A stretch of DNA of 9,439 nt from a bacterium. GTDB lineage: Bacteria; CSSED10-310; JAJRTK01. Position 1 is the stretch's first letter; every line of letters starts with the position of its first letter. Of the stretch, positions 6,033 through 8,755 are shown piece after piece. The stretch is from contig JAJRTK010000025.1 of the NCBI GenBank assembly GCA_024278345.1, positions 1-9,439 of the forward strand, given 5' to 3'. Made by a program: the position numbers and the translations under genes. The notes below the pieces were generated by a model. It searched no databases, was not told the DNA's origin, and saw only the letters and a program-made list of their open reading frames with translations.

Positions 6033-7727
6033 TCATGCCATCCGCCGTGCCAGAAGGGTTTCGATCCAATCGGGCTCCATGCGCACCGCGATGTTTTTCT
6101 CCCCGCTGAAGGTGACGCGCCCGGCGGGACCACCACGGATGGCGCGAACCTGGTGGCGGTGGCAATAGGCCACCTGCACCGTGCGGTCAGCGGCTGCCTT
6201 CGAGTGAACCGCCGCCAAAGCCGCCGCCTCCAGAATCGCCCGAGGCGGCGGTTCTTTCCGCCCCTGGCGCCGCAGGACCACATGCGAGCCAGGATAGTCC
6301 CGTGCATGGAACCACAGATCTTTCGCCTTGGCCAACTTGAAGGTCAGGAGATGGTTTCCTTTGGCATGGCGGCCCACGAGAATCTCCAGTCCGTCGGTGG
6401 ATCGATAGGCGGCAACGCCCGCGGGAATCCTTCGCTGGGAGGCTGCCGTCCAGCCCGCTTCCTTGGATCGAACCTTCCCTATTGCAGCCGATATCGCCTC
6501 GAGATCCCCCGCCACCTCAAGCCCGGCCCGCGCCGTTTCCAGCTCCGCCCGCCGCCTGGAGACCTTCTCGAAGTGCCGCCGAGATCCCACACGGATCTGT
6601 TCCAGCCGCCGAGCCCGGGCGAACAAACGATCCAGGTTCCCCGCTGGTTTCAAGGCAGGGTCCAATTTTATCGTCACGTCACCGCTTCCGTCGAACGCGG
6701 TGCAAACCAACCGGTCTTGACCTCGGCGGGACCGGTGGAGGTTTGCGGCCAGAAGCTCTGCCTGACGCCGGACGAAAGGGGCCTCGGCACCCGCCAGCAT
6801 TTGCTCCCGCAGCCGCTCTTCCAGGCGCGCGATCTTCTTGATTTCCCGCCGGATCGCCCCTTCGATCTCCCCCCTTTGGCGTGCGAGAGCCAGCACTTTT
6901 TCCCGCCGAAGATAGACTTCTTCAGCCGCCTCCGAAAAGGATCGCGGGAGCCCGCTTTCGGCCTTCTGGGAGAGCAGCGTCTCGGGTACTGCCGTCAAAA
7001 ACTCCTTCTTTCCCGTGGGAAACGGAACGAGCCGACCCGGTTCCTCGCCCCGTCGAAGAACCTCCCGAAGCCCGTCGGCCACGCTCCATCCACCTCTCTG
7101 AAACAGCTCGCCCCAGGTCCGAGCTGTCCATGGGGAGATGGGCGAAAAAAAACGTGCCAGCCCCGAGGCGTCACAGGGATTTTCCGCCAGGAGCTCCCAC
7201 CGGTCCACCGCACCAACGCCAAGCTCTTGGCCCTTGGCCCGCGGCGGAGGCCTATAAGAGCTTCCCACCTCCAACTTCCGAACGCGGCTCATCTTGCCGG
7301 AAACGGGCCGGGCGACGCAGAGGATCGCTCCATCCATGCGCGTCAGCACTAGATTCGTCAAACGCCCGGTCATTTCCAGGTGGAGCTTCATTCGCCCGGA
7401 GAACCGCTCGGACTCCAGCGTCACAAGGCGGTCCAGCCTCGGCTGCCTCAAATCAAGAACCCGCGTTCCAGCCAGGTGAAGATCGAAGGCGTGTGCCAGT
7501 CCTCTTCTGACCTTCCGGCCCCCAATTTTTCGGGTCCAGAAAAGGGCGGGGTTCTCTCGGTCCAGGGAAATGAACAGACCCCCCTTTTCCCCCGTGAAAC
7601 GAAACAAAAGAGCCCTTGGCTTCCCCGTTTCCCAGGGAAGTACTGCTTGCTGTACCGCGCTGAGACTGCCATTTTTCAGCAGGTCGGCAAGCTCCGGCAC
7701 CAAGCCTCGATAAAAAAAAGCATCCAC
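6033..7727 (-). CDS. NFACT-family ribosome quality-control protein (RqcH/Rqc2-like, DUF814)
   Basis: NFACT proteins (Rqc2/Tae2, bacterial RqcH) bind stalled 50S subunits and tRNA and add C-terminal alanine tails to stuck nascent chains. The 564-residue product has the full layout. NFACT-N opens VDAFFYRGLVPEL; a coiled coil falls at about 264-405, interrupted by the conserved patch FDGSGDVTIKLDPALKPAGN (345-364). NFACT-R (DUF814) follows with VGRHAKGNHLLTFKLAKAKD (451-470), LWFHARDYPGSHVVLR (471-486) and ALAAVHSKA (503-511). D99-R100 within QPRLDRLV matches the Asp-Arg pair needed for tRNA binding and tailing in Bacillus RqcH, which suggests an active enzyme. The GTG at 7727 was chosen because family members begin with M-D followed by an E-L pair; no strong Shine-Dalgarno precedes it. 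Its TGA overlaps an ATG (ATGA, 6033-6036) in the lptD frame. Confidence 0.93.
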   Translation of the reverse strand: MDAFFYRGLVPELADLLKNGSLSAVQQAVLPWETGKPRALLFRFTGEKGGLFISLDRENPALFWTRKIGGRKVRRGLAHAFDLHLAGTRVLDLRQPRLDRLVTLESERFSGRMKLHLEMTGRLTNLVLTRMDGAILCVARPVSGKMSRVRKLEVGSSYRPPPRAKGQELGVGAVDRWELLAENPCDASGLARFFSPISPWTARTWGELFQRGGWSVADGLREVLRRGEEPGRLVPFPTGKKEFLTAVPETLLSQKAESGLPRSFSEAAEEVYLRREKVLALARQRGEIEGAIRREIKKIARLEERLREQMLAGAEAPFVRRQAELLAANLHRSRRGQDRLVCTAFDGSGDVTIKLDPALKPAGNLDRLFARARRLEQIRVGSRRHFEKVSRRRAELETARAGLEVAGDLEAISAAIGKVRSKEAGWTAASQRRIPAGVAAYRSTDGLEILVGRHAKGNHLLTFKLAKAKDLWFHARDYPGSHVVLRRQGRKEPPPRAILEAAALAAVHSKAAADRTVQVAYCHRHQVRAIRGGPAGRVTFSGEKNIAVRMEPDWIETLLARRMA

Positions 7728-7834
7728 GGTCGTTTCTGTTTCAGGAGTTGCGGGGGATTTGGTGGTAACACGCCCTTCGGGGAAAAAGCAAGGAGCGAGG
7801 GCGATGAGGGGCTCCTATCGGCACGGGTATCCAC

Positions 7835-7878
7835 GTAACGTTCATGGAGACCAATCGGACCACCCCGGAAGCATGAAA
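7835..7878 (+). repeat. Direct repeat, copy A (44 bp)
   Basis: This copy reads GTAACGTTCATGGAGAC, then CAATC, then GGACCACCCCGGAAGCATGA plus AA. Copy B at 8099-8137 matches it exactly apart from lacking the 5-bp CAATC. The two copies are 264 bp apart in the same orientation. It begins inside the left arm of the 12-bp inverted repeat GGGTATCCACGT (7825-7836). Confidence 0.88.
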
Positions 7879-7907
7879 AAAAGACGCGGGGCCGAGCGCA
7901 GCGAGAC

Positions 7908-7924
7908 GCGGCCCAAAGGGCCGC
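7908..7924. other. Hairpin GCGGCCC-AAA-GGGCCGC
   Basis: A perfect 7-bp GC stem with an AAA loop. It is preceded by GCCGAGCGCAGCGAGACGC, a wording common in bacterial intergenic hairpin repeats. No T-run follows on either strand, so it is not a typical intrinsic terminator. It has the same form as the hairpin at 9409-9425 (7-bp stem, AAA loop). Confidence 0.7.
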
Positions 7925-7943
7925 AACCAGAGTCCCCGGATGA

Positions 7944-8021
7944 CCTTCGAGTCACGCAAACGTGACCCGCCGAGTAACGCACGGCGTTACCCGCCGAGTA
8001 ACGCGAGGCGTTGCCCGAAGG
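7944..8021. repeat. Three tandem hairpins on a 24-bp period, enclosed by an outer stem
   Basis: Units of 24 bp lie at 7941-7964 (degenerate), 7965-7988 and 7989-8012. Each contributes a hairpin. The stems are GTCACG/CGTGAC with loop CAAA (7951-7966), GTAACGC/GCGTTAC with loop ACG (7974-7990), and GTAACGC/GCGTTGC with loop GAG and one G-U pair (7998-8014). Identical CCGCCGA linkers (7967-7973, 7991-7997) separate them. CCTTCG (7944-7949) can pair with CGAAGG (8016-8021), closing the array into a cloverleaf-like fold. The third stem position is C-G in arm 1 and A-T in arms 2 and 3, a compensatory change. The function is unknown: it could be a structured RNA, a mobile repeat, or a protein-binding array. 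Confidence 0.75.
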
Positions 8022-8083
8022 CCAGAAATTCCCCGAACCGAAGGTCGTAAACCGCGCTTACGGCACAAAGACAAATCTCGATG

Positions 8084-8099
8084 GCGTGTACTTTCACGG
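8084..8099 (+). repeat. GCGTGTACTTTCAYGG word, copy 1
   Basis: Exact match with C at the variable position. The other copies are at 8211-8226 (C) and 8246-8261 (T). The inner GTGTACTTTCAC is an imperfect dyad (GTG-N6-CAC). This copy runs directly into copy B of the 39-bp repeat. Confidence 0.8.
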
Positions 8100-8137
8100 T
8101 AACGTTCATGGAGACGGACCACCCCGGAAGCATGAAA
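8099..8137 (+). repeat. Direct repeat, copy B (39 bp)
   Basis: Matches 7835-7878 base for base apart from missing the 5-bp CAATC. It follows immediately after the first GCGTGTACTTTCAYGG word, whereas copy A is preceded by GGGTATCCAC instead. So the modules are shuffled between copies. Confidence 0.88.
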
Positions 8138-8185
8138 GGCAGGACGCCGCGGCCTCCGATGTTTTAGCCCCCCAATCTTTTCGCG

Positions 8186-8205
8186 TGGAGGCCTTCCGGC
8201 CTCCA
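8186..8205. other. Hairpin TGGAGGCC-TTCC-GGCCTCCA
   Basis: A perfect 8-bp stem with a 4-nt loop, extendable outward by a G-T pair and further C-G and G-C pairs to about 11 bp (8183-8208). No T-run adjoins it. It sits just before the second GCGTGTACTTTCAYGG word. Confidence 0.7.
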
Positions 8206-8210
8206 TGCCG

Positions 8211-8226
8211 GCGTGTACTTTCACGG
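8211..8226 (+). repeat. GCGTGTACTTTCAYGG word, copy 2
   Basis: Identical to copy 1 over 16 bp, and it follows the hairpin at 8186-8205 closely. Copy 3 starts 35 bp later. Confidence 0.8.
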
Positions 8227-8245
8227 CAAGACAGATGTCTGCTTT

Positions 8246-8261
8246 GCGTGTACTTTCATGG
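8246..8261 (+). repeat. GCGTGTACTTTCAYGG word, copy 3
   Basis: Same 16-bp word with T in place of C at the variable position. It is followed at 8263-8274 by ACGTGGATACCC, the reverse complement of 7825-7836, which closes the repeat-rich block. Confidence 0.8.
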
Positions 8262-8451
8262 CACGTGGATACCCCGTTGGTTTAGTAGCTTCTGGAGTTC
8301 CTGCCCTAATCGGAGAGCACGACCAGATTCCGCGGGGTGATCGGTGGCAACCGAGGAAGGAGACCTTCGATCTGTTAAATTCGTGGCTATTATTTGGTAA
8401 AGGAATGTTGAATATAAAAAATTCCCTAGATTGGCTTGGGGAGTCGAAAAG

Positions 8452-8755
8452 ATGATGCGAGGGCGTGACGGGTCTGGAACTGGGGCGGCTTTCTTGTTTG
8501 GAGTGGGGGCTCGCGGGGGGGGGGGTACAACACTTTCGTTCCGGCGCCGCCAGGTGTTTTGCCTCCGGGAGTTTCGCGTCCTGAGCGTTTGAGGTTCCGG
8601 CCATCGTTCGAGCCGATAGGGGAGAGTTGTCTTCTCCGGGAGTCCCGGGATGTAGGATTCATAGTGGGGGCGCCCGTTGGGAAGGCAAGGGAAGCGGTAG
8701 GATCGGCGAAGGGAGAGAGTGTCTGGACTCCGGGCTGGGGCGCCGGGGATTGCCG
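8452..8755. other. Leader-like region with a G11 tract and no firm gene
   Basis: GGGGAG at 8438-8443 lies 8 nt before ATG-ATG at 8452/8455, opening a 46-codon frame that ends at TGA 8590-8592. The peptide is Gly/Arg-rich and crosses a run of eleven Gs at 8515-8525. I do not accept it as a gene without more evidence. From 8593 to 8755 the frame of the next gene is open but gives a low-complexity, non-conserved-looking translation, so I treat it as untranslated. The G11 run sits about 230 bp before the chosen start of the 8756 gene. Confidence 0.5.

Follow-up and report, generated by a model that had tools for sequence, protein, structure and literature searches.

The window, i.e. the whole stretch of 9,439 nucleotides that was analysed, contains at 7944-8021 a compact array of hairpins between two divergent open reading frames, namely a gene of the NFACT family (6033-7727, minus strand) and an ORF on the plus strand. 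The locus raises the question whether these hairpins represent a structured RNA whose pairing is maintained, as the original prediction had suggested in describing a cloverleaf with compensatory changes, or whether they belong to something else. We assign a probability of about 0.88 to the reading that the array is an internal palindromic module, variable in copy number, of a high-copy, non-autonomous, MITE-like repeat family, in which F1 elements are mobilised in trans and F2 and F3 elements are nested. The original prediction as a whole is partly supported by our results; its reading as a cloverleaf RNA is not supported.

The description of the array itself could be confirmed from the sequence and by TRF. 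The hexamers CCTTCG (7944-7949) and CGAAGG (8016-8021) flank three palindromic units of 22-24 bp which start at 7948, 7971 and 7995, and TRF reports a 24-bp period with 3.0 copies and 82% matches at 7948-8017. Both the change from C-G to A-T and the G-U wobble are present within the three units of the window. Folded as RNA, the plus strand reaches −37.1 kcal/mol (z −4.3; none of 200 shuffles was equally good) and forms three hairpins with an outer stem. The minus strand reaches −53.7 kcal/mol (z −7.1) as a single long hairpin. The claim of a fold more stable than shuffled sequence is therefore correct for both strands, while the three-hairpin cloverleaf shape is obtained for the plus strand and not for the minus strand. 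The much better fold of the minus strand is partly due to an A-C mismatch (CGAG/CCCG) that occurs in every unit and becomes a G-U pair there. If the minus strand is the one that folds, the cloverleaf is not the preferred shape. No Rfam family was matched in the window.

Whether the pairing is maintained can be judged from related units elsewhere in the genome (6.06 Mb in 550 contigs). Among 123 distinct unit occurrences, selected with an arm pattern that did not constrain the two variable pairs, mismatches being counted on either strand, the pair named as compensatory is C-G in 62 cases and an A/G mismatch in 54, and only 6 units carry A-T. The frequent mismatch means that the GTAACG arm usually faces CGTGAC, which is unpaired at the named position. 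The outer hexamer stem is fully paired in 4 out of 126 arrays, and the number of units varies: 71 of these arrays contain one unit, 33 contain two, 15 three and 4 four, with a maximum of seven. These run lengths may include a number of symmetric arrays once per strand; a stricter unit pattern missed units ending in CCCT and gave shorter runs. The claim that the pairing of the cloverleaf is maintained is not supported by these counts.

At the level of the single unit the picture is different. In 38 distinct unit variants, which are closely related paralogues representing few lineages, 85.8% of the cells are paired compared to 81.7% in column shuffles, and the covariation score is 0.175 compared to 0.105, an excess that is destroyed if the partners are slid against each other. 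Pairs with changes on both sides show no excess (3 versus 2.5 in column shuffles). Covariation above shuffles is thus seen within the unit, whereas few units show the named A-T change and few arrays retain the outer stem. The pairing excess supports palindromic units, as expected of a palindrome family, and does not single out RNA over DNA; some selection may act on the palindromes. Imperfect DNA palindromes are known to become perfect when one arm serves as template for the other in replication, and this would produce the same pairing pattern. A general caution follows from this comparison: three tandem units are too few for calling changes between them compensatory.

Copies at other loci, which the original prediction proposed to look for, are numerous within the genome itself. 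A search with positions 7900-8060 gave at least 55 matches with E ≤ 0.001 (40 of 271 candidates were scored). At the matching loci, further palindromic modules surround the arrays, and inverted copies of the 22-mer GGTATCCACGCAAGGCGGGACA often mark the boundaries. This terminal repeat of the family termed F1 has 421 matches genome-wide with up to three mismatches (203 forward, 218 reverse), and the reversed control pattern has none in the same genome. In a sample of 80 contig stretches (0.89 Mb) picked for carrying copies we counted 36 inverted pairs of F1 ends, nearly all of them 166-360 bp apart. The termini read GGGTATCCACG(C/T)AA(G/A)GCGGGACA, and the true end is GGGTATCC, since an 8-bp duplication starts one base outside of the 22-mer. 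The 8-bp flanks are identical in 10 of the 31 pairs with flanks and differ by at most one mismatch in 14, compared to expectations of 0.3 and 0.45, respectively, from shuffled pairings. This duplication is specific for its length: exact repeats of 5, 6, 7 and 10 bp did not occur, and those of 9 bp occurred twice.

The F1 interior consists of repeated palindromic modules and has no coding capacity, and a canonical element folds over its full length, the termini being perfectly paired (z −7.7). Solo copies and copies truncated at contig ends are frequent. With terminal inverted repeats, target duplication, small size, lack of a protein and high copy number, F1 shows the features by which MITEs are recognized, and on structural grounds it is a MITE-like non-autonomous transposon.

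Two further types of elements explain the arrangement in the window. F2 elements extend from ACACTCATGGAGACC to GTACTTTCACGG over about 161-167 bp and are mostly flanked by TA; several copies interrupt an F1 terminal repeat precisely at the TA, in the order TGTCCCGCCT-TA-F2-TA-CGTGGATACCC (L115, L132, L163, L174). F3 elements combine F2-like ends with palindromic modules of the F1 type. In the window the order is GGGTATCCACG-TA-F3-TA-F2-CA-CGTGGATACCC, with the array inside F3 (Table 1). The array is followed by F2 also on contigs C347 and C362, and contig C58 is similar. The ends of the window copy match the F1 terminal repeat over about 12 bp only, and the 8-bp target duplication seen at other F1 copies is absent around 7825-8274, as expected of a rearranged composite. 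What had been regarded as the most structured unexplained element of the window is accounted for by its membership in a mobile repeat family.

Table 1. Features of the repeat elements located in the window.
Feature	Position	Strand	Basis
Palindromic units, tandem, n = 3	7948..8017	+	TRF 24 bp × 3.0; related units at over 50 further loci
Outer pairing CCTTCG/CGAAGG	7944..8021	+	present here; 6/6 pairs in only 4/126 arrays
Composite MITE-like repeat, whole element	7825..8274		12-bp perfect inverted ends GGGTATCCACGT/ACGTGGATACCC; BLAST coverage of the whole interval by copies from other contigs plus the element itself
Outer half of F1 terminal repeat + TA (GGGTATCCACG-TA)	7825..7837	+	421 matches of the 22-bp repeat; F2-type ends in its TA elsewhere
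F3 element ACGTTCATGGAGACC ... GGCGTGTACTTTCACGG, TA-flanked, holds the array	7838..8099	+	array-plus-tail order repeated on C58, C347, C362
F2 element ACGTTCATGGAGAC...GCGTGTACTTTCATGG, directly after F3, shared TA	8102..8261	+	canonical 161-167-bp F2 copies elsewhere
Right end, outer half of F1 terminal repeat (CGTGGATACCC)	8264..8274	-	inverted repeat
Second F1 copy, cut by the contig end	9316..9439	+	GGGTATCAACGCAAGGCGGGACA, then palindromic modules

A mechanism consistent with these observations can be outlined. F1 elements would be inserted by a transposase acting in trans, which duplicates 8 bp of the target, and between their ends hairpin modules would be exchanged, among them the 24-bp unit repeated one to seven times. 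Arrays may grow by slippage or unequal exchange. The TA-flanked F2 and F3 elements would land in the TA of the F1 ends, exchanging modules with them, and the window copy is such a composite, with F3 and F2 between two halves of F1 ends. A more far-reaching idea, which we consider unlikely, is that the arrays are functional parts tuning the element or its neighbours, e.g. by a unit number that sets adjacent expression as in boxB or by serving as a protein-binding or single-stranded substrate in transposition, and that two unrelated transposition systems (8-bp and TA) swap them within one genome.

The search for an autonomous partner covered IS256, IS1595, PF01609 and Y1 transposases in the assembly and gave none with ends matching F1. 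No IS256 was found, IS1595 is represented by two partial copies with different ends, and the sole Y1 match of the genome lies below the family cut-off; all contigs seen were longer than 3 kb, so that the assembly may have lost a short insertion sequence by collapse. The IS1595-type fragments (L195, L196) have their own end GGCTCTATATGCGATCCAGGGATC, and at L082:10998-11114, where a contig ends, an F1 element is interrupted by this end sequence. The start of contig C373 (L197:1-265) carries a C-terminal DDE_Tnp_1 fragment (PF01609) followed by F1 copies, with ends that do not match. A non-repeat interior beside some F1 ends (C80, C96) was considered as a transposase and rejected, as it is a group II intron. 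The 3′ ends of such introns (Rfam RF00029, 49.6-58 bits) adjoin hairpin modules of the repeats at L079:21-99 (the same place as L175:21-99) and L167:1864-1942, and similar junctions were matched on about a dozen further contigs. Class C group II introns insert next to hairpins, and the junctions look like insertions of this kind. A third dispersed motif, GGGACCTATCAAATC, is found near repeats (L093:3740, L114:13235 and the L173 flank) and may be another repeat family.

Outside of its own genome the repeat is hardly traceable. The F1 terminal pattern is absent from all seven phylum mates and from 137 further genomes (144 in total), a DNA search in 40 relatives gave no homologue beyond one 27-bp match, and in plasmids, phages and viral contigs the element was not found at the sensitivities used.

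The genomic context has a bearing on the other explanations. Only 27% of the repeat bases lie within long ORFs, compared to 79% of all DNA, and the genes neighbouring the repeats are arranged in tandem in 27 cases, convergently in 12 and divergently in 10, which is close to background; this context was derived with a rough ORF picker rather than a gene caller. The intergenic position of the hairpins would agree with a selected role at gene ends, as intrinsic terminators or another form of transcription punctuation. This explanation is hardly credible, as the repeats are not clearly enriched where genes converge, the ORFs on either side of the window copy are divergent, and the single terminator-like site at 7700-8750 (8196-8211, with 1.4 expected) is located outside of the array. 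An 11-G run occurs downstream of the repeat in intergenic sequence (8515-8525). At the other end of the window, the ORF at 2-646 contains repeats of 45, 78 and 123 bp at 46-279 (97% matches for the 123-bp period) and encodes a repetitive protein without a Pfam match.

A structured RNA under selection for pairing, be it a cloverleaf or another multi-hairpin form acting as small RNA, mRNA leader or stability element, could account for the fold of both strands and for the covariation that is lost on sliding the partners. We nevertheless regard it as very unlikely: the better-folding minus strand does not form the cloverleaf, the named pair is mostly C-G or mismatched, neither outer stem nor unit number is conserved, an Rfam family is missing in the window, gene contexts follow the background, and homologous loci were not found in the other species searched. 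Extragenic palindromes of the REP/BIME type, spread by a RAYT (Y1) transposase, would likewise be high-copy, intergenic and mosaic with variable tandem arrays. REPs are moved by Y1/RAYT proteins, and neither REPs nor Y1 elements are known for long inverted terminal repeats or for duplicating 8 bp of the target. Both are present here, and together with the weak Y1 match this renders a REP/BIME origin highly improbable. The most plausible reading makes the three hairpins a component of a selfish repeat family and not a new cloverleaf RNA.

Read as part of such a family, the structured intergenic element is one piece of a genome-wide load of mobile repeats, which comprises at least 421 copies of the terminal repeat over 6 Mb and was met in none of the other genomes searched. 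Many contigs end within these repeats, which helps to explain the fragmentation of the assembly into 550 contigs. TA-flanked elements nested cleanly in the terminal repeat of another family provide a useful case for the exchange of modules between non-autonomous elements.

Among known systems, REPs are palindromes of 20-40 bp (PMC3733652, PMC3116915), and REP/BIME/REPIN elements have in common with the present family that extragenic palindromes form mosaics and tandem arrays. Correia/NEMIS and other bacterial MITEs are described as shorter than 200 bp, A+T-rich and mostly having TA at their ends (PMC2229807). They share with F1 the small size, the lack of a protein, terminal inverted repeats, target duplication, a stem-loop fold and a mainly intergenic location, and their TA ends resemble the TA-flanked F2 and F3. 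F1 differs in being mostly about 200-360 bp long and visibly G+C-rich, in its 8-bp duplication and in its mosaic interior. BOX elements of Streptococcus pneumoniae are built from tandem boxB units, whose number differs between copies, with a module at either end; they occur in high copy and are MITE-like (PMC3049150). The plan of end module, array and end module, the high copy number, the stable predicted folds and the MITE-like features appear to be common to both, whereas the F1 ends are 22-bp terminal inverted repeats with an 8-bp duplication, and the interior contains several different palindromic modules in a G+C-rich host. Judged by architecture, the pneumococcal BOX with its boxB arrays would be the closest analogue.
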